The position numbers and the translations under genes are program-made. The notes below the pieces were generated by a model, which saw nothing but the letters and a program-made list of their open reading frames with translations, was not told the DNA's origin and searched no databases. This document shows, in pieces, positions 9,499 to 39,734 of a stretch of 44,336 nt of DNA; the stretch's first letter is position 1; every line of letters starts with the position of its first letter. The stretch comes from Actinomycetota bacterium (GTDB taxonomy: Bacteria; Actinomycetota; Geothermincolia; Geothermincolales; RBG-13-55-18), in the NCBI GenBank assembly GCA_013178005.1, contig JABLXL010000015.1, forward strand, positions 1-44,336, written 5' to 3'.

Positions 9499-11181
9499 TC
9501 ACTGCGGCGGGATCAATTTGCCCGGGTTCATGATCTCCTCCGGGTCGACGGTCTTCTTCACCGCCCGGATGGTCTCGATGGAGATGTCTCCGACCTCGCG
9601 CCTCATCCAGGGAGCGTGCTCGTATCCCACCCCGTGGTGGTGGCTGATGGTCCCACCGTATTCCATGATCGCCTCCGATGCCGCCCTCTTCGCCTTCTCC
9701 CACTGCTCCTCCTCCTTGCCCTCCTCGGCCATGGGCGCGAAGAAGGTGTAGTACAGGGATGCCCCCTCCCGGTAGGAATGGGAGACGTGGCACGCCACCA
9801 TGCTCCTCCCCCCTCCCTCCTCCAGCGAAGCGCGCAGGGCGCTGCGCACCTCGCCGTAAAGGTGCAGGAGGTTGTCCCAGGTGGTGGCGGTCTCCAGGGT
9901 ATCCACCATCACCCCCCAGTTGATGAGCTGCTCGCGGAAATAGGCGGTCTCGTGGCGGCTCTTGTACCACTGGCGCCCGGGGTTGGTGCCGAGGTGGAAA
10001 CCCCCCAACTGCCTGCAAAGGCGGAGGATGCCCACCCGCAGGTACTCCACCTCGTCGCGCTCTCCCTCCAGTCCCAGCACCATGAAGGCTCCGTCATCGA
10101 AGGAATAGCCCCGGCTTGCCAGCACCTTCAGGGCGGCGTCCTCCGCCTTTCTCTTCCACTTGCTGCCGGTGGTGGAGCGGAAGGCCTGGGCCAGGGCGGT
10201 CTCGGTGCGGTCAGAGAGCCTCACGCATGTGGGCACCATCCCCTGCTGCATCATCTCCCTGATGGCGGACACGCCCGCGGCGAAATTGCGGAAGATGATC
10301 CCCCGGTAGTCGATAACCGAGGGGAGGGGCCGAATCCTCATGGTCGCCTCGGTGATGACGCCGAAGAAACCCTCCGAGCCCACGCACAGCTGCAACACCG
10401 AGGGCCCCGCCGCCGTGGAGGGCACCTTGCGGGTGTCGATGACCCCGCGCGGCGTGACCATGCGCAGGGCCAGCACCATGTCCTCGATATCGCCGTAACC
10501 GGTGGACTGCCGCCCGGAGGCGCGCGTTGCCAGCCAACCCCCCAGGGAGGAATGGTCGAAGCTCTCGGGGAAATGTCCCAAGGTGTAACCGTGGGCGTTG
10601 AGCTGCTCCTCTATTTCCGGCCCCAGGGCGCCCGCCTGGATAACCGCCGTCTGAGAAGTGGCATCCACGCGCAGGACCCGGTTCAGCCTGGCCATGTCCA
10701 TGCTGATCACGCCGTCCCTGCCCTCTGCCAGGGGCTCCACTCCGCCCGTGACGCTGGAGCCGCCCCCGAACGGAATGACGGCGAGGTTGTTCTCCTCCGC
10801 GATGCGAAGCAAGCCGACGACCTCGCCCTCTTCGCGCGGCCAGACCACCACGTCGACCGGCCGCTCCACTTTGCGCATGCGGAAACGGAGGAGGTCGCGG
10901 TAGCTCTTGCCCATGGAATGACTCACGCGCTGGAACCTGTCGGTGGAAACGTTTTCCTTTCCGCACAAACGCTCGAAGGCCGCGAGCAGGTCCGGGCCGA
11001 TACGGCACGGGGCAAGGTCGATCTCGTCCAGCTCTGGGTCCGTGAAACGTTCGTGATCAAGCTCCATGCCGAGGTTCTGGCGCAGGAAGGGCAAGATGTT
11101 CTCGCGGTTCTCCACGTCGAACCTCTGGTCCAGGTTCCCCCAACCCCACCAGCGGGTCTTTCCCTCCACGTAATCGGACAT
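9499..11181 (-). CDS. FAD-linked oxidase, alkyldihydroxyacetonephosphate synthase-like
   Basis: A 560-residue PCMH/VAO-family flavoprotein. The FAD-binding region shows PFGGGSSVTGG (about 150-160) and FPESFDHSSLGGWLATRASG (about 200-225), followed by TGYGDIEDMV. The C-terminal region carries the HHHGVGYEHAPWM segment and the closing DPEEIMNPGKL. The long N-terminal extension and the histidine-rich motif match alkyl-DHAP synthase better than D-lactate or glycolate oxidases. That enzyme swaps an acyl for an alkyl group on DHAP in ether-lipid synthesis, using FAD without net oxidation. Bacterial homologues may have other substrates. ATG 11181 follows GGGGAGGT by 7 nt. Confidence 0.8.
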   Translation of the reverse strand: MSDYVEGKTRWWGWGNLDQRFDVENRENILPFLRQNLGMELDHERFTDPELDEIDLAPCRIGPDLLAAFERLCGKENVSTDRFQRVSHSMGKSYRDLLRFRMRKVERPVDVVVWPREEGEVVGLLRIAEENNLAVIPFGGGSSVTGGVEPLAEGRDGVISMDMARLNRVLRVDATSQTAVIQAGALGPEIEEQLNAHGYTLGHFPESFDHSSLGGWLATRASGRQSTGYGDIEDMVLALRMVTPRGVIDTRKVPSTAAGPSVLQLCVGSEGFFGVITEATMRIRPLPSVIDYRGIIFRNFAAGVSAIREMMQQGMVPTCVRLSDRTETALAQAFRSTTGSKWKRKAEDAALKVLASRGYSFDDGAFMVLGLEGERDEVEYLRVGILRLCRQLGGFHLGTNPGRQWYKSRHETAYFREQLINWGVMVDTLETATTWDNLLHLYGEVRSALRASLEEGGGRSMVACHVSHSYREGASLYYTFFAPMAEEGKEEEQWEKAKRAASEAIMEYGGTISHHHGVGYEHAPWMRREVGDISIETIRAVKKTVDPEEIMNPGKLIPPQ

Positions 11182-21606: not shown

Positions 21607-21960
21607 GGGTTCATACCCGGACGTTGGGTCGTATCTTTACTTTTTCATTCGCCGGATCGAGAAAAAAAGGTCCATCGCCTCCATGGAACAAGAAAGTCAA
21701 AACACGGCCCGGGTTCATACCTGGGCATGGGGTCGTATCTTTACTTTTTCATTCCGCCGGATGGAGAAGAAAACGCCCATCGCCTCCACGGAACAAGAAA
21801 GTCAAGACACGACCCGGGTTCATACCTGGGCATGGGGTCGTATCTTTACTTTTTCATTCGCCGGATCGAGAAAAAAAGGTCCATCGCCTCCATGGAACAA
21901 GAAAGTCAAAACACGGCCCGGGTTCATACCCAGATGCGGGGCCATATATTCACCTTTTCT
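21607..21960 (+). repeat. 104-105 bp tandem repeat, 3.4 copies
   Basis: Units at 21607-21710 (104 bp), 21711-21815 (105 bp), 21816-21919 (104 bp) and a decaying fourth from 21920 to about 21960. Each starts GGGTTCATACC and contains TCGTATCTTTACTTTTTCAT, then CGCCGGAT, an A-rich run, ATCGCCTCCA and GGAACAAGAAAGTCAA. Units 1 and 3 are nearly identical, unit 2 differs at about ten positions. A trace of the first bases (CTCATACCTGG) precedes unit 1. CTTTTTC and GAAAAAAAG within each unit are complementary. The repeats lie in the 630-bp gap 21459-22092, which has no convincing gene; open frames across them look accidental. Confidence 0.9.
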
Positions 21961-22092
21961 TTAATACTGGCACATGGGGGAACTTCTGAGATGGACGGGT
22001 AGATGAGGAAATATCGAGGGATTGGAAAAAGACATAAGGAGCGTCGGCGCTCAACTACGCGCAGCGCATCCAGCATCCATATTAACTACGGT

Positions 22093-30368: not shown

Positions 30369-33263
30369 TCAACCCAGCACCGGCCTGCGCCGCGCGGCCA
30401 CGCTTATGGACAGTATGGCGAGGATGACAAGGAGGGAGACGATCCCCGCCACCGCCCAGCTTTTCTTCGAGCCCTGCCCGTAGTTGTAGGTGGCCGGGGT
30501 CTGGTAGATGAAGGCGAGGTTGTTCTCCGCGTCCTCAGCCCTCCCAAGGATATGGTCGAACTCCTCACCGCGCTGCTTGATGGCCTCCAGTTGCGATTCC
30601 GTGAGGTAGAGGTCGGCGAGGTTTCCCGCCAGCCCCTCGTACATGGCGTTGATGCCCTCTTCGGAGATCCTCTTCAAGCCGGACTCCACCTGGTCGGCGC
30701 CGTAGAGCAGGGTATCGGGCGTGGTCGTGGAGCCGAGCCCGGAGACGGCCTCTCCCAGCCCGGAGGAGATCAACATCAGGCCCTCCTTGAGGCCGGGGTC
30801 GTTCATGTCGCCGCTGGAGAGGCCGGTCTTCATGCGGTACAGCCCGTGCTGCACCTGGGCCATGGCGTAGAGGAGGGTGTTTGGAGCACCTTCCGCCCCG
30901 ATGCCGGACTTCATCAGCTCGAGGCCGTTGCCCACCTGGGCGAGGGCGTAGAGGAGGCTGTCGGCGGTGGTCTCGCTCCCGATGCCCTCCTTTATCTGCA
31001 TGAGCCCGTCGCCCATGGCCGACATGGCGTAAAGCAGCGTGTCCTCCTTGTTGGCCGACCCTATCCCCGCCTTCATGAGCTTGAGCCCGTTTTCCACCTG
31101 GGCCACGGCATAGAGAAGGGAAGGGTTGGTGGTGGGGTCCCCGATACCGCTCCGTATCTCCTCCAGCCCCTTCTCCACCTCGTTGACGGCGAAGAGGAGA
31201 GAGGGGTTCTGGTCGATGTCCCCGATGCCACGCTTGAGCTCCTCCAGGCCTCCCCTTATCTGGGCGGCCGCGTAGAGCAACTTCTCCTCCCCACCGATGC
31301 CCTCCTTGATCTCCCGCAGGCCGTTGCGGATCTCGTTCAGGCCATAGAGGAGGGTGTCCGGGGTCCTGGCGGAGCCGATGCCGGAGATCATGTCCTCGAG
31401 GCCTTCCAGCATCATGCCCAGCCCGTAGTGCATGGAGGGATCGTCCGGGTCGGTGCTCAGGATGAGGCCTTGCTCCAGCTGGTCCACGATGGGGCCGGTC
31501 CAGAAAGCCAGCACCCTGATGAGCTCCAGCCCCGACCAGAGCTCGCTGCCCACCGACGTCTGCGCGTACATCTCCGAGACGCCGGCCTTCAACTCCTGTA
31601 TGCCTTCCAGCAGGCCGGGGTTCGAGGGATCGCCGCTGCTCACGCCCTTGGTTACCTCGGACACGCCGTAGAGCAGGGTATCGCGAGTGTTCTCCGAGCC
31701 GATACCGTCGAGTATCTGTTGCAGGCCATCGGCCATGGCGGCGATGCCGTAGAGCAGGGTGTCTGGGGTCCCGGCGGAGCCGATGCCCTGGCTTGCCTCC
31801 CGCAGGCCGCTCTTCATCTCGTTCATGGCGAAGAGCAGGCTGGGATCCGCGCCGGCCGCGCCTATGCCCGCCTTGATCTGGGTCAGGCCCTTCCTCATCT
31901 CGTTCATGGCGTAGAGGAGGGTGTCCTGCATGGCCGCGTCACCGATACCCTGGGCCATCTCCTGCAGGCCGGCGGAGGCCTGGTCCACGCCGTAGAGGAG
32001 GGTGTCCGGAGTCTCGCTGGAGCCGATGCCCGCCGCCATCTCACGCAGCCCCTGGCTCATGGCGTTGATGGCATAGAGGGCCGTGTTGGCGACGTCCGGT
32101 CCCCCGATTCCCCCCAGCATGCTGGTCAAGCCCACCGAAGTGGCGTCAATGGCGTAGCTCAGGGTGTCGGGCGTGCCGGGATCCCCGATGCCCGCGACCG
32201 CCTCCTCCACACCCGGTATGAGCTGGTCCTCGAGCGCCGCCTGGGCCTCGGGCAGGCCCGATGCCATCTGCTGCAACCCGTCGCTGATGGCATGGATGCC
32301 GTAGAGCAGGGTGTTCTCCGTCTCGGCGCTCCCCAAACCGTCGCGGATCTGCCTGACCCCGTCGAAGAGCATCTTGAGGCCGATGATGAACTCCGGCAGG
32401 GTATCGCGCTGGTTGGTCTGCGGGAAGATGAAGTTGGCGGAGAGCACCAGCGGCGGCATGCTGAAGTTCTTCACGTCGGCCTCCACCCATATGGTGTGGC
32501 TTTCCTCGGTGGCGGGAGGGAACAGGGGTATGGACCATCCCACCTGGTAATGTTCGGGCAGTTCGACCACCACCCCCGTGGGGTCAGCCTTGAGGTCGAA
32601 GAAGACGTCGTTGTCGAAGTACCAGTCATAGGGGAGGATGACCAGGGGCAGGTAGGTATCCACCTCCTCGGTCTTGATCTCCCCCGTCTCGGGATCCTCG
32701 TACTCCAGGGTCCTCCTCTCCTTGCTGGTGTTCTTCATCCTCAGATAGAGCTTGAAGTGGCCGTCCTGGCCCGTCTTCTCGTTGGGGTCGGAGATGATCT
32801 CGCCGTTCCACTCGTAGATGTATTCGATGTCCAGGGGAACGCGCATCCTCACCTCCCTCACCTGCTCCTCTTCGAGCGTGACGGAGCTCAGGTAGTTGGC
32901 GTTCCCCTTTACTTCCAGCCCCTTCCATACGAGCTGGTCTCCCTCCACCACAGGGGTGGTGAAACTTTTCACGCCCTGCCAGTTGCCGCCTTCCTGCAGG
33001 GACATGTCCTTTCTCACATCAACCTCGCCCTCGCCCTTGAGGCCGAAATAGGTTATCACCCTTCCCTTCTCTATGGCGCCCTTATGGTTGGTATCCAGGA
33101 TCACCGCCTCGGAGCTCATCACCTCGACGGCCTCCTCTCCGGTCTCCGCGCCGGCGGCGGGGAAAACCGCCAGCAGGGAGAAGCTGAGCACCGCCGCAAA
33201 AAGCGCGCCCGCCCCTATCTTCGCCGCGCGTCCGATCCGCTTCATCTTCATCACCGCCCTCAC
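30369..33263 (-). CDS. Exported, C-terminally anchored protein with about 17 repeats of 27 residues
   Basis: A 964-residue protein. A signal peptide (about 6-39, ending FPAAGA) is followed by a beta-rich domain of about 260 residues (FGLKGEGEVDVRKDMSLQ, then PYDWYFDNDVFFDLKADPTG). From about 309 to 870 run repeats of consensus GIGSxxTPDTLLYAMNxMxxGLxxMxx: eight, a 100-residue interruption, then nine. Lengths are mostly exactly 27, with single units of 24 and 28. A hydrophobic helix (about 935-957, AGIVSLLVILAILSISV) and RRR end the chain, so it is anchored with the bulk outside. The repeats recall the L-x-x-G heptads of YhgE/Pip proteins but have a distinct unit. GTG 33263 overlaps the stop of the upstream gene; ATG 33251 is an alternative start. 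Confidence 0.75.
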   Translation of the reverse strand: MRAVMKMKRIGRAAKIGAGALFAAVLSFSLLAVFPAAGAETGEEAVEVMSSEAVILDTNHKGAIEKGRVITYFGLKGEGEVDVRKDMSLQEGGNWQGVKSFTTPVVEGDQLVWKGLEVKGNANYLSSVTLEEEQVREVRMRVPLDIEYIYEWNGEIISDPNEKTGQDGHFKLYLRMKNTSKERRTLEYEDPETGEIKTEEVDTYLPLVILPYDWYFDNDVFFDLKADPTGVVVELPEHYQVGWSIPLFPPATEESHTIWVEADVKNFSMPPLVLSANFIFPQTNQRDTLPEFIIGLKMLFDGVRQIRDGLGSAETENTLLYGIHAISDGLQQMASGLPEAQAALEDQLIPGVEEAVAGIGDPGTPDTLSYAIDATSVGLTSMLGGIGGPDVANTALYAINAMSQGLREMAAGIGSSETPDTLLYGVDQASAGLQEMAQGIGDAAMQDTLLYAMNEMRKGLTQIKAGIGAAGADPSLLFAMNEMKSGLREASQGIGSAGTPDTLLYGIAAMADGLQQILDGIGSENTRDTLLYGVSEVTKGVSSGDPSNPGLLEGIQELKAGVSEMYAQTSVGSELWSGLELIRVLAFWTGPIVDQLEQGLILSTDPDDPSMHYGLGMMLEGLEDMISGIGSARTPDTLLYGLNEIRNGLREIKEGIGGEEKLLYAAAQIRGGLEELKRGIGDIDQNPSLLFAVNEVEKGLEEIRSGIGDPTTNPSLLYAVAQVENGLKLMKAGIGSANKEDTLLYAMSAMGDGLMQIKEGIGSETTADSLLYALAQVGNGLELMKSGIGAEGAPNTLLYAMAQVQHGLYRMKTGLSSGDMNDPGLKEGLMLISSGLGEAVSGLGSTTTPDTLLYGADQVESGLKRISEEGINAMYEGLAGNLADLYLTESQLEAIKQRGEEFDHILGRAEDAENNLAFIYQTPATYNYGQGSKKSWAVAGIVSLLVILAILSISVAARRRPVLG

Positions 33264-33811
33264 TCCGAGGCGGCCGGGACTTCCGCGGCCGCGGACTTTG
33301 CGGGGGAGAGGAGCAGCGCGTCAAGCACCGCCGCCAAAAGCAGGCCCACCAGGAGGGAGAGGGCGGTGCCGACCAGGGTGGTGACGGCGCGGTGGATGGC
33401 CTCCACCGGCTTTTCCGCCAGCAGGTAGTCGAAGCGGGCCACCGCCCCCAGGAAGCACCCCCATCCCACCAGGAGCATGGGGAGCATCTCCCTGAGCTTG
33501 GGGATGGAGATGAGCCCGGCTATGAGGATGAAGATGGCTCCCGCGATGGCCACCGAGAGCCCGTAGTAGAGCGGGAAGACCAGCATGAAGAGGACGAAGG
33601 TGAGCAGGCCCAGAAGCGTTCCCACCACCCCGCCCAGGGTCATCCAGGGCAGGGAGCGCGCCAGGGCCGGCCCGTAGGCCAGGCACACCCCGAAGGAGAC
33701 CAGCGCCACCCAGTATGCCTTGGCGCCGAGGTAGTCGAAGAGCCAGATCCAGAAGAATGCCACCACGGCCAGTACGACCGCGAGGATGGCGTTGCGCGCC
33801 ATCTTGTTCAT
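33260..33811 (-). CDS. Multi-pass membrane protein, DUF1097-like
   Basis: A 183-residue protein with about six membrane helices: ILAVVLAVVAFFWIWLF, AYWVALVSFGVCLAYGPAL, a glycine-rich pair (TLGGVVGTLLGLLTFVLFML, GLSVAIAGAIFILIAGLI), a fifth (MLPMLLVGWGCFLGAVA) and a sixth (LVGTALSLLVGLLLAAVL). The glycine-rich arrangement resembles DUF1097 proteins, which have no proven function. ATG 33811 follows GGGGGGAT by 5 nt. The TGA (33260-33262) overlaps the GTG start of the repeat-protein gene, which implies translational coupling and a fixed ratio of the two products. They may form one envelope complex. Confidence 0.65.
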   Translation of the reverse strand: MNKMARNAILAVVLAVVAFFWIWLFDYLGAKAYWVALVSFGVCLAYGPALARSLPWMTLGGVVGTLLGLLTFVLFMLVFPLYYGLSVAIAGAIFILIAGLISIPKLREMLPMLLVGWGCFLGAVARFDYLLAEKPVEAIHRAVTTLVGTALSLLVGLLLAAVLDALLLSPAKSAAAEVPAASE

Positions 33812-35076: not shown

Positions 35077-38000
35077 CTAATCTTCCTTCAGGCCACGCAG
35101 GAGTCTATCCAGCTCACGTGCGCCCTTTATCTCGTCGAGAACCAAGAGGGCGGCCTCTCTTACCTCCGGATCGGCGTCCCGTGACCTTTCCTCGAGCAAG
35201 GGCTCGGCCGCATTCCCGCAGTCCAATACCTTGTTCCACTGCCTGGTGGCTATCAAGTAGGCTGCCTTCTCGCGGTCGCTCTCCGGCTCCCAGCCCAACT
35301 TGTCCAGGACTTCCGCCGTCCTGGCCCTAACGTCGGCGTCCTCGTCATCGAGGGCACGCGCCAGACCCTTCGCGCTTTCCGGGTCGCCCGTCTTGCCGAG
35401 CGCCCAGACCGCTTTCCTGCGCACTTCCACGCTGCTATCATCGAGGGCCCCGAGCAGTGCCTCGACTCCGCGCCGGTCTCCGATGAGCCCAAGCACCGTA
35501 GCGGCCTGCCTGCGAACGTCCCCGTCCCCGTGGACGAGGGCCCGCGTGAGGGGTTTTACCGCCGGATACCCAAGTCTTGCCAGCTCCTCCCATCGCCCCT
35601 CTTCCACGAGCCTCTCGGCGGCCTCGGCCTCGTCTCCCTTCACCCATCCCAGTCTGGCCAGGATATCCGCTGCCGCCTTCCGCGCTTCGGGGCGAGGCCC
35701 ATCCAGCGCCTTGAGCAACTCTCCAACCGCCGGCTCCCCTATCTCTTCGAGCAAGAGGGCCGCCTTTCTCCGCACGCCCGCATCCGGATCGTCAAGCGCC
35801 CTGACCAGCGGCAGCACCGCCTTGTCTCCAGCACGCTTGACCGCTGCCCAATCGCGCTCCTCGATGCCACGTTCCACGTCCGATACGGTGAGCTCGGGGG
35901 CTTCCGGGGCGGGAGGCACGCTCATTTCCACGACAGGCTCGGGCACCGGGGCGGCCTCGGGGGCGGGCTCCTCGGGGGGCGCCTCCGCGGCCACCATCTC
36001 CTCCACTTCCTCGGCCACCGCCGGGGCGGCCTCCATCGCCGCCTCCTCGAGCACCTCCTCGGGGGCTTCCGGGGCGGGAGGCACGCTCACCTCCACGACA
36101 GGCTCGGGCACCGGGGCGGCCTCGGGAACGGGCTCCTCTGGGGGCGCCTCCCATCCCAGCATGCGCAGGGACTCCTCGGCGGCATCCCTGACTCCCTGGT
36201 CCTCGTCTTCCAGCGCTCGTACCAGCGGCTCGACGGCGGCTTTGTCGCCCAGCTTCCCGAGCGCCCAGGCGGCCTTTTCGCGCACCGCCGCCTCTATGTC
36301 GCCCAGGGTGAGGATGAGGGTGTCCAGCCCCCTGCGGTCGCCTATCTCCCCGAGCCCCCACGCGGCCTTTAGCCGGGTCTCTCCATCTCCCGTGAGCAAA
36401 GCGTCGATCAGGGATTCCACCGCCACGTCGCCCAGCCCGGCAAGCCGATCCCACTGGCGATCGGCTATCAGCTCCTGGATCTCCTCCGCCTCCTCAGGGG
36501 GTGTCCAGCCAAGTTTTTCCAGAACGAGCAACGCGACCCGCCGCACATCCTCGTCCGGGTCCTTGAGTGTTTCCACCAGCGGCTCGACGGCCCTCGCGTC
36601 CCCTATCTCGCCCAGGGCCCATACCGCCTTCCTCCTCATCTCGGCGTCATCGTCTCCCAGCGCAGCGTTCAACGGCAGGGTGGCCGCCTCGTCTCCGATG
36701 ACCCCCAGCGCCCAGGCCGCACCCCGTCGCACGGAATTATCCGGGTCCCTCAGCAGCGGAATAAGGGAGTCGCAAGCACGCCTGTCCCTTATGACCCCCA
36801 GGGCCCAGGCGGCTCCGCGCCTGGTTTCCGGATCATCGTCCACCAGGGCCGCCACGAGCTGGTCGAAGGCCCGCTGTCCCATGGCGGCGAGCCTCTCCCA
36901 CTCGCCCAGGGCTACCAGTTTCCGCGCCTCGTCGAACTCGCCTTCCTCAACACTCACGGGAGCTTCCTCTTCGACCTCGACGGCAACTCCCTCCTCGGGA
37001 AGCGCCGGCTCCACTTCCTCCATGGCCTTGAACACGGAGGCCGCAACCTCCTCCACCACCGGCATCTCGGCGGCTTCTCCTTCCGCCTCCTCCGAGACGG
37101 CCGCGGGGACTTCCTCCTCCGGAAGCGCCGGCTCCACTTCCTCCATGGCCTTGAACACGGAGGCCGCAACCTCCTCCACCACCGGCATCTCGGCGGCTTT
37201 CCCTTCCGCCTCCTCCGCGACGGCCGCGGGGACTTCCTCCTCGGGAGCCTCCTCCTCCGGCGCCTCGAGCGCCGGCGGAAGCTCAATAATGACCGACGCC
37301 TCCTCTGGGAAAGCTTCCGCCATGGGCGCAACGGGTTCGGGGGACGTTGCCCCGACGGCAGTGGGGACTTCTTCTTCCGAGGGTTTCCAGCCCAGGCGGG
37401 TAAGGATGGATGCGGCGAGCTGGCGCACCCCGGGCTCTTCATCGTGCAGGGCGCGCTGCAGGGATTCCACGGCTGGCTTGCCTATCTTTTCCAGGGCGTT
37501 CGCCACCCTGCCTCTGACCTTTTCATCCTCGTCACGCAAGGCCTTTATAAGCGGGGCTATGGCGCGTATATCCTTTATCTCCCCCAGGACGCGAGCCGCC
37601 TCACGGCGCAGGTCGGGATCCCTTGACCCCAGCGCTTCCACGAGAGAATCGACGGCGGGATTGCCGATTTTCTTAAGGGCCCCCGCAGCGTTCACCCTCA
37701 CGTCGCGCTCGGGATCGCCCAGGCTTTCCACCAGCGCGTCGACGGCCCTGACGTTGCCCAAGACCCCCAGCGCCCATGCGGACCTGCTCCTGACCTCAGC
37801 GTCTTTGTCCCGCAACGCCTGGATAAGGGGCTCGACCGCCGCCTCTCCCAGTTCCGTCACCTTGTTCCATTCATGTCGTTCTATGTAATAAGATGCTTTC
37901 TCTTCCTCTTCGCTGCGCCAAGATGCCTCTGCGCCCGAGGCCTCGACCGACAACTCCAGCGTTTCCGGCAACAGAACCTCCTCCGGCGACGCCAGGACCT

Positions 38001-39588
38001 CCTCCGCTTTCCCGATACCGGCTTCCACCGCCGGCATCTCCACCTCGGGTTCAGCTTCCGGCCTCTCCTCCCTTTCCCTGGAGCCAGCCCTCGCCAGAAT
38101 CTCCTCCACCGTCTCCCGCAGTTCGTCGTCCGCCAGGGCTTCGTTCAGCGCATCGGACGCCGTCTCGCCCATCTCCGCCAGCGCCCAGGCAGCTCCCCGG
38201 CGCACCTCCTCGTCTTCGTCCCGCAGGGCGCCGATGAGGGGATTCACGGCTTCCGCCGCCCTGATTACGCCCAGCGCCCAGGCCGCTCCCCTGCGCACCG
38301 CCGTTTCCCCCGCCTCCAGTTCGCGCAGAAGGGGCGCCACCGCCGTATCGCCCAGCCTGCCAAGGGCCCAGGCGGCCACGCGCCTCACGTCCTCATCCTC
38401 GTCCTTCAGGGCCGCCACAAGGGGCTCCACCGCCCTGGCGCCCCCCAATTCGCCCAGGGCCAAGGCCGCGTTCCTGCGCACGAACCAATCGCGGTTTTCC
38501 AGCGCGCCGAGGAGCGCGTCCACTACCTGGGCGTCGCCGTATTCCTTCAGCAACAGGACCGCTTCCCGCCTGATGTCCTCATCTTCGTCATCGAGCAGGG
38601 AGGCGACGGTTGCGGGCGCGATTTTCCCCTTATCCTTCAGCGCGGACGCCACCTGCCGCCTCGTCTCCCAACCCTCGCCCTTGAGGGCTTTGAGCAGCGG
38701 GCGCAAGGCGTCCTCGCCCAGGGCGGCGATCTCGTCCCAGCGCCGGTTGGCGATATAGAACTGGATCTTCTCGTCCTCTTCCTCGGGCTTCCATCCAAGT
38801 TTTCCCAGCACGAGGGCGGCCACCCTTCGCAGGCCTTCGTCACCTTCCTTGAGGTAACGACGCAGACCGTAGACGGCCTTCTTTCCGCCGATGGCCACCA
38901 GGGCCGCCCCTGCCTCTCGCCGCAGTCCTTCGTCCCCGTCCTTCATGGCGCCGAGGAGCGCGTCCACGGCGTTTTCGTCCCTGATGATCCCCAGGGCCGC
39001 CGCCGCGTCCCTGCGGGTTCCCGGATCATCCTCCGAAAGCGAGTTGATCAGCATCTTCACCGCGGCCGGGCCGATCTTCTCCAGCGCCCAGGCCGCTCCC
39101 CAGCGCACGTTGTCGTCCTCGTCCCTCAGGGCTTGCACCAGCGGCCTTACCGCCCTTATGTCGCCTATGGATCCGAGCACCAGTGCGACCTTCGCCTTTG
39201 CCTCTCCCGCCTCCGTCCTCAAGGCCTGGATGAGGGAGTCCACCACCGGTTTACCTATCTTCTCCAGCGCCCAAGCCGCCTTCCAGCGCACGTCGCCGTC
39301 CTCGTCATTGAGCACCTGGATAAGGGGGCGGGCAGCGGGCTTGCCGATCTCCCCCAGTGCCCAGGCCGCTCCCCAGCGCACGTCCTCGTCCTCGTCTCTC
39401 AGGGCCTCCACCAATGCCGCAACCGCGCGCGCCCGCTTAAGTTTGCCCAAGGCGAGCGCGGCGTTTATGCGCAGGTTGACGTTCTCATTCCTGAGCGCGT
39501 GAATGAGACCGTTGACATCCTTCTTGGCCTCCATCTTCTCGATGTTCGGCTTTCCGAATCCCGATTTCGACAACCTGAAGGCGCTCAA
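35077..39588 (-). CDS. Giant HEAT-repeat protein with seven or eight solenoid blocks
   Basis: About 1503 residues, cytosolic by sequence. More than 35 PBS-lyase-type HEAT repeats (DEDEDVRWGAAWALGEIG-like) are grouped in blocks. Several blocks end in LGWxPxxxE and the next opens with an (Y/L)I-x-x-R-x-W-x-x-(L/V)-x-x-LG-x-x-A helix (IQFYIANRRWDEIAALGEDA is one). Two Glu/Pro/Ala linkers separate blocks: one contains a 41-residue exact-type duplication (VVEEVAASVFKAMEEVEPAL twice), the other a 55-codon one (PEEPxPEAAPVPEPVVE twice). TTG 39588 lies 7 nt after GGGGAG and gives SKSGFGKPNIEKMEAKKDVN, matching the usual FGxPN-x-EK start of such proteins; ATG 39651 has no such support. It is a scaffold of unknown partner. 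Confidence 0.85.
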   Translation of the reverse strand: MSAFRLSKSGFGKPNIEKMEAKKDVNGLIHALRNENVNLRINAALALGKLKRARAVAALVEALRDEDEDVRWGAAWALGEIGKPAARPLIQVLNDEDGDVRWKAAWALEKIGKPVVDSLIQALRTEAGEAKAKVALVLGSIGDIRAVRPLVQALRDEDDNVRWGAAWALEKIGPAAVKMLINSLSEDDPGTRRDAAAALGIIRDENAVDALLGAMKDGDEGLRREAGAALVAIGGKKAVYGLRRYLKEGDEGLRRVAALVLGKLGWKPEEEDEKIQFYIANRRWDEIAALGEDALRPLLKALKGEGWETRRQVASALKDKGKIAPATVASLLDDEDEDIRREAVLLLKEYGDAQVVDALLGALENRDWFVRRNAALALGELGGARAVEPLVAALKDEDEDVRRVAAWALGRLGDTAVAPLLRELEAGETAVRRGAAWALGVIRAAEAVNPLIGALRDEDEEVRRGAAWALAEMGETASDALNEALADDELRETVEEILARAGSREREERPEAEPEVEMPAVEAGIGKAEEVLASPEEVLLPETLELSVEASGAEASWRSEEEEKASYYIERHEWNKVTELGEAAVEPLIQALRDKDAEVRSRSAWALGVLGNVRAVDALVESLGDPERDVRVNAAGALKKIGNPAVDSLVEALGSRDPDLRREAARVLGEIKDIRAIAPLIKALRDEDEKVRGRVANALEKIGKPAVESLQRALHDEEPGVRQLAASILTRLGWKPSEEEVPTAVGATSPEPVAPMAEAFPEEASVIIELPPALEAPEEEAPEEEVPAAVAEEAEGKAAEMPVVEEVAASVFKAMEEVEPALPEEEVPAAVSEEAEGEAAEMPVVEEVAASVFKAMEEVEPALPEEGVAVEVEEEAPVSVEEGEFDEARKLVALGEWERLAAMGQRAFDQLVAALVDDDPETRRGAAWALGVIRDRRACDSLIPLLRDPDNSVRRGAAWALGVIGDEAATLPLNAALGDDDAEMRRKAVWALGEIGDARAVEPLVETLKDPDEDVRRVALLVLEKLGWTPPEEAEEIQELIADRQWDRLAGLGDVAVESLIDALLTGDGETRLKAAWGLGEIGDRRGLDTLILTLGDIEAAVREKAAWALGKLGDKAAVEPLVRALEDEDQGVRDAAEESLRMLGWEAPPEEPVPEAAPVPEPVVEVSVPPAPEAPEEVLEEAAMEAAPAVAEEVEEMVAAEAPPEEPAPEAAPVPEPVVEMSVPPAPEAPELTVSDVERGIEERDWAAVKRAGDKAVLPLVRALDDPDAGVRRKAALLLEEIGEPAVGELLKALDGPRPEARKAAADILARLGWVKGDEAEAAERLVEEGRWEELARLGYPAVKPLTRALVHGDGDVRRQAATVLGLIGDRRGVEALLGALDDSSVEVRRKAVWALGKTGDPESAKGLARALDDEDADVRARTAEVLDKLGWEPESDREKAAYLIATRQWNKVLDCGNAAEPLLEERSRDADPEVREAALLVLDEIKGARELDRLLRGLKED
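35901..36150 (-). repeat. 165-bp (55-codon) tandem duplication in HEAT linker
   Basis: CTTCCGGGGCGGGAGGCACG begins at 35901 and again at 36066, and the following 80 bases are almost identical. The duplicated unit encodes the Pro/Glu/Ala linker between HEAT blocks and keeps the frame. Confidence 0.8.
37001..37246 (-). repeat. 123-bp (41-codon) tandem duplication in HEAT linker
   Basis: AGCGCCGGCTCCACTTCCTC begins at 37001 and at 37124. The two units are nearly identical over their full length and keep the frame, which indicates a recent in-frame duplication. Confidence 0.85.
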
Positions 39589-39734
39589 CTGTGCTCTCCC
39601 CTCTTCTTCAAGCCGCCCCGGGACCCTACAGTCCCGCGAACGAAACGGCAAACACCTGCTCGGGTTCGCGACTGATCTTGTCGACTCAAATCAGAATTGA
39701 CCAACCCCCAAGCGTTAATCCAGTATTTTTGCAG

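Follow-up and report, generated by a model that had tools for sequence, protein, structure and literature searches.

The minus-strand gene pair at 30369-33811 of the window (the whole 44,336-nucleotide stretch analysed here, contig C7 of the metagenome-assembled genome G000) encodes a membrane protein of the DUF1097 family and a long repeat protein which, judged from profile comparisons, does not represent a new family but belongs to the LxxG-heptad superfamily of envelope proteins, being secreted and anchored at its C-terminus. In the reading that we favor, with a probability of roughly 0.55, the repeat protein is an adaptor or stalk of this superfamily in which a DUF1097 protein of six helices has taken over from the MMPL neighbour and a 27-residue unit has arisen from the heptads. 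Homology, architecture, gene linkage, the difference in partner and concerted evolution are all observed for the pair. Its features are as follows.

33260-33811, minus strand: gene for the 183-aa DUF1097 membrane protein, with roughly six transmembrane helices predicted (Pfam PF06496, hydropathy)
33238-33811, minus strand: 574-nt tract identical to the second-locus copy on contig C37 (within-genome DNA comparison)
30369-33251, minus strand: gene of the repeat protein, 960 aa if counted from the probable ATG start (comparison of 22 loci around the start)
33147-33251, minus strand: signal peptide region of the repeat protein (sequence and alignment A1)
32364-33125, minus strand: beta-rich N-terminal domain (profiles; strands in a low-confidence model)
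31626-32339, minus strand: first repeat array, eight 27-residue-type units, with a 49-residue spacing after unit one
31383-31625, minus strand: non-repeat interruption between the arrays (about residues 547-627)
30660-31382, minus strand: second repeat array with nine units, one of which has only 24 residues
30474-30659, minus strand: conserved C-terminal domain, R-x-x-E-F-D-H-x-L-G-R ... F-x-Y-Q-T (profile; also in MMPL-paired relatives)
30393-30461, minus strand: C-terminal transmembrane helix, then a basic tail (KD19 2.77)

A reading of the open reading frames over the whole window found both genes where the first-pass annotation had placed a two-gene envelope system. The repeat protein runs from the signal peptide through the beta-rich domain, the two arrays and the C-terminal domain to the C-terminal transmembrane helix. 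The signal peptide and anchor that had been proposed are both clear, and the beta-rich domain is recovered by profiles as a conserved N-terminal domain. A GTGA overlap of the two genes had also been described. The TGA stop of the DUF1097 gene does overlap a GTG at 33263, from which the repeat frame would be 964 aa long (30369-33263, minus strand), but this GTG is unlikely to be the start. Across the 22 loci compared, the DUF1097 stop is in most cases followed by a ribosome site resembling GGAGGT and, about 9-12 nt downstream, by an ATG; the codon in this place is GTG in two, and a real gene overlap is present in some relatives, such as L055. From this arrangement, the repeat gene here probably starts with the ATG at 33251, and the overlap is therefore probably incidental. 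Genes at neighbouring loci were called with a simple ORF script.

The unit has the consensus G-I-G-S-x-x-T-P-D-T-L-L-Y-A-x-x-x-M-x-x-G-L-x-x-M-x-x in both arrays. Self-identity over residues 301-870 is 0.306 at a lag of 27, 0.25 at 54 and 0.233 at 81, and the best lag never exceeded 0.145 in 2000 shuffles. With a relaxed motif, 19 units are recovered, spaced by 49, 27 (six times), 21, 60, 27, 24, 27 (five times), 28 and 27, so that 13 of the 18 spacings are exactly 27 residues, and the near-constant unit length that had been reported holds. The array of about 17 units is real, and its count depends on the motif (19 relaxed, 15 strict) and the run is broken by the non-repeat stretch. Judged by its DNA, the array is old, since just 1.9 copies of 81 bp are recovered by Tandem Repeats Finder. 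Each unit combines a turn and a TLLYA segment with a pair of LxxG heptads, one at positions 15-21 and one at 22-28, and heptads of the form x-x-x-[LIVM]-x-x-G occur as 25 double heptads in the repeat protein. Among 193 distinct units, selected with a motif that itself fixes G at positions 1, 3, 21 and 28, position 18 is V, I or M in 89% and position 25 is M, I, L or V in 94%. The number of units varies among members from about 1 to 17. An AlphaFold model of a five-unit array has one helix of about 21 residues per unit at moderate confidence (pLDDT 65), consistent with the helical units proposed earlier; compared with PDB folds, this model gave nothing significant (best E 0.044). Prediction of the full chain from four closely related sequences was less successful, reaching pLDDT 38 with strands in the N-terminal domain.

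The first-pass annotation knew of no named family with this unit. Searches of Pfam, NCBIfam and PDB sequences with the repeat protein alone gave no match, which explains that impression; PDB profile searches returned nothing credible, and a plasmid search with the sequence found none. Profiles overturn the claim, since they place the end domains and the repeat core within the LxxG-heptad superfamily. Built from 31 relatives, an N-terminal-domain profile matched 54 of 396 genomes of the phylum, with E values down to 1e-28 outside the window's class, a little-known one among the actinobacteria; an HMM search with this domain had been suggested. The C-terminal domain is also shared with outside relatives and lies at their C-terminus (best E 1.3e-8), several of them being clearly above decoys. 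Comparison of the whole profiles A2 and A7 gave an E value of 1.5e-66, to which low-complexity repeats may add, while the aligned N-terminal domain carries the score. The survey covered genomes of the window's phylum and one plasmid match beyond it: by profiles, the homology of the end domains also reaches a Bacillota plasmid protein.

Several of the outside relatives are textbook LxxG-heptad proteins, matching TIGR03057 with E values as low as 5.7e-37 (L094). On the window's repeat protein, the same model scores 8 bits (E 3.6), below its curated cut-off of 18.6 bits; it reaches E<=1 in nine of 27 class members (best E 0.0069), and its search of the listed class genomes gave no match, with control matches in B. 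subtilis and L. lactis. The repeats have drifted so far from heptads that the standard models miss them. A model of the 27-residue unit, also suggested as a search, finds a single TPxTLLYG-like unit among ordinary heptads in L105 (LGDTSTPKTLLYGSNAIWQGLAKM, E 4.3e-7) and another single unit in L097 (GLGSAGTAGTILNGLAQVSGGLGQL, E 1.7e-10). Both stand above heptad-preserving decoys, the best of which reached E 0.08, and the context of the last unit is common to L097 and the class (SGDPNSPGVIEGLDAVAGGLAQVISGIGSVGTEDTL in L097 versus SGDMNDPGLKEGLMLISSGLGEAVSGLGSTTTPDTL in the window protein). The most fitting reading of the 27-residue array is therefore that a pre-existing unit was expanded. Searches of open-access papers found nothing on linkage of the N-terminal domain to MMPL, on what DUF1097 does or on a unit of 27 residues; TIGR03057 and the heptad name each turned up in one incidental mention, and DUF1097 in five single occurrences.

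The identification of the partner as DUF1097-like stands, with 29.2 bits against a PF06496 gathering score of 24.6 (E 1.2e-6), and the protein is conserved in alignment A3. It differs from DUF1097 at large in being a class-specific subfamily: with a profile of it, full-length copies in 392 phylum genomes occur only in genomes with a repeat protein. DUF1097 adjoins the repeat gene at 29 of 32 class loci (22 complete, seven cut by contig ends), across five families of the class, so the link between the two genes that had been proposed is real. A stoichiometric link is not supported, because the repeat protein occurs without an adjacent DUF1097 at the remaining three loci; in two of these cases (locus B of G005 and of G009), the genome has two repeat proteins and a single DUF1097. 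G001 carries a third copy of the repeat protein with no DUF1097 upstream (L057, G001:C24 7030-8301).

Outside the class, another membrane protein often stands in the place of DUF1097. An MMPL permease lies directly upstream in 11 of 18 outside relatives, which are the best-scoring profile loci and a few weaker ones and not a random sample, and several have a TetR gene too; at several of these loci, the MMPL label comes from BLAST against a set of four proteins that Pfam had confirmed as MMPL. The arrangement TetR, MMPL and relative was also found on a Clostridia plasmid. No class locus has an MMPL-like frame beside the repeat gene; DUF1097 stands there instead. The C-terminal transmembrane helix follows the partner: it is absent in all 11 MMPL-paired relatives (KD19 <0.65) and present in all seven outside relatives without MMPL, as it is in each of the 25 class members whose C-terminus is complete. 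Partner (MMPL or DUF1097) and matching absence or presence of the C-terminal anchor thus form a testable rule. Two simpler origins of the difference were rejected. MMPL has not been lost from the class, every relative searched having MMPL genes elsewhere in its genome, and DUF1097 is not a piece of MMPL, no homology being detectable (hhalign probability 0.3).

The nearest systems include two kinds of relative. MMPL-paired relatives (such as L102, L105 and L111) have a signal peptide, a homologous beta-rich N-terminal domain, a helical region and a homologous C-terminal domain, and their genes, too, come immediately after one for a membrane protein. They differ in the permease, in lacking the C-terminal helix (11 tested) and in having heptads or plain coiled coil in place of the 27-residue array. 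Unpaired, membrane-anchored LxxG proteins (such as L094, L099 and L100) share the signal peptide, the N-terminal domain, an LxxG array and the C-terminal helix with its basic tail; unlike the window protein, they have canonical 7-residue repeats and neither DUF1097 nor MMPL as a neighbour. The mycobacterial pump MmpS5-MmpL5 (MmpS5L5) combines a small beta-domain membrane subunit with a long helical or coiled-coil tube outside the membrane (PMC12501195). It is a functional parallel only: here a single chain carries both the beta domain and the helical array, and the window's repeat gene has no RND permease gene beside it.

The position of many outside members directly behind an MMPL (RND-type) permease suggests a role as extracytoplasmic adaptor or tube. 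The likeliest role of DUF1097 is that of an interchangeable partner, in the membrane, of such an adaptor or stalk, with transport as a putative function. The beta domain would most likely sit near the membrane with DUF1097, in what may be a physical complex, and the helices, one per 27 residues in the model, might form a rod or tube that projects into or through the wall, although this stalk geometry is conjectural, as is the idea that hydrophobic molecules of the envelope are moved or held by the protein. DUF1097 need not be energised. A broader version is less likely than not: LxxG-domain proteins would be modular extracytoplasmic adaptors able to swap their membrane partner (an RND/MMPL permease in many lineages, DUF1097 here), and the DUF1097-repeat pair would be a new kind of small envelope machine in which two different extracellular stalks share one membrane subunit homogenised by gene conversion. 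An area of envelope transport or adaptor function is thereby suggested for two poorly understood families, the LxxG-heptad surface proteins and DUF1097.

A structural stalk that has nothing to do with transport is possible but doubtful. Its own C-terminal helix would anchor the protein, the N-terminal domain would be held off the membrane, and DUF1097 would aid insertion or stability. The anchor in every complete class member, the seven outside relatives anchored without an MMPL neighbour and a number of units as variable as expected of a spacer all agree with this; left unexplained are the MMPL linkage of the relatives and the fact that the domains at both ends are strongly conserved. LxxG-type heptads are also found in the long extracytoplasmic region of YhgE/Pip and YueB/EsaA, and YhgE-type heptads had been named as the nearest known thing. 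LxxG heptads are indeed the nearest relative, and this repeat type (TIGR03057) is what would recommend a protein of the YhgE/Pip or YueB/EsaA type, that is, a phage receptor or type VII secretion accessory. YhgE/Pip itself gives no match: its N- and C-terminal models are absent among the families reported for the repeat protein and its relatives, and the membrane topology differs, with a cleaved-signal-like N-terminus, a beta domain and one C-terminal helix here. Because the terminal domains are missing, such an identity is largely refuted, and we give it hardly any weight. That the two genes are mere neighbours with no functional link is very improbable too; the three loci with an unaccompanied repeat protein would fit, but linkage at 29 loci in five families, the confinement of full-length DUF1097 to genomes with a repeat protein and the keeping of a DUF1097 copy at both loci speak against it.

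Two loci occur in family f1. Locus A has a UppS-like gene, aldolase II, DUF1097 and a shorter repeat protein, and locus B, that of the window, has a HEAT protein, nitroreductase, DUF1097, a long repeat protein and a histidine kinase. The conserved neighbours of locus A (aldolase II, UppS-like, DUF123 and DUF5719) point to no transport pathway. Repeat proteins group by locus in their tree, and DUF1097 behaves in the opposite way. In G000, its copies at the two loci match without a difference for 574 nt, and this identity has sharp borders, one just before the upstream ATG and the other several codons inside the repeat gene; comparable parts in G001, G002, G012 and G014 show no more than about one differing base. 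In these five genomes, the two DUF1097 copies are thus almost the same, whereas the difference between the repeat proteins is about 55%, an old divergence. DUF1097 differs over its first 180 nt by 3-5% between species of the genus and by about 11-12% between the two genera; from the numeric table, only the within-genome figures of G000, G002 and G012 were used, its between-genome 3' slices and G001 slice not being aligned for length. The economical reading of these comparisons is one shared, interchangeable DUF1097 membrane partner, apparently homogenised by gene conversion.

The DUF1097 copy at the window locus could instead have been pasted in from the other locus during assembly. The source is a MAG, the 574 nt are identical in both contigs, and one G001 contig joins the upstream side of locus B to the repeat gene of the other locus. 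A misjoin would, however, swap the flanks yet leave both repeat genes behind DUF1097. Moreover, two upstream and two downstream contig ends of G002 and two downstream ends of G012 break inside DUF1097, with single-base differences between the copies in both genomes; two real copies are therefore favoured, and an artefact is improbable.

Several minor observations were made along these loci. The G001 join runs via DUF1097 to the type-A repeat gene (L047, G001:C129) and reflects recombination or misassembly; misassembly may be the cause of this order of flanks. A frame shift near residue 700 of a locus-B repeat gene (L035 at about 10390-11100, G005:C15) is either a sequencing error or a broken gene. 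Upstream of the pair, window 35077-39651 encodes a 1524-aa protein that consists mostly of HEAT-like repeats and is conserved at locus B. Just downstream of the type-A repeat gene on G000:C37, a short-period repeat at L006 2906-3333 reads as SHISHPIYPIPYIP. Finally, a dispersed DNA repeat, about 78% identical and common to both contigs (window 21607-21962 and L006 9789-10083, G000:C37), consists of overlapping tandem copies of roughly 105 bp.
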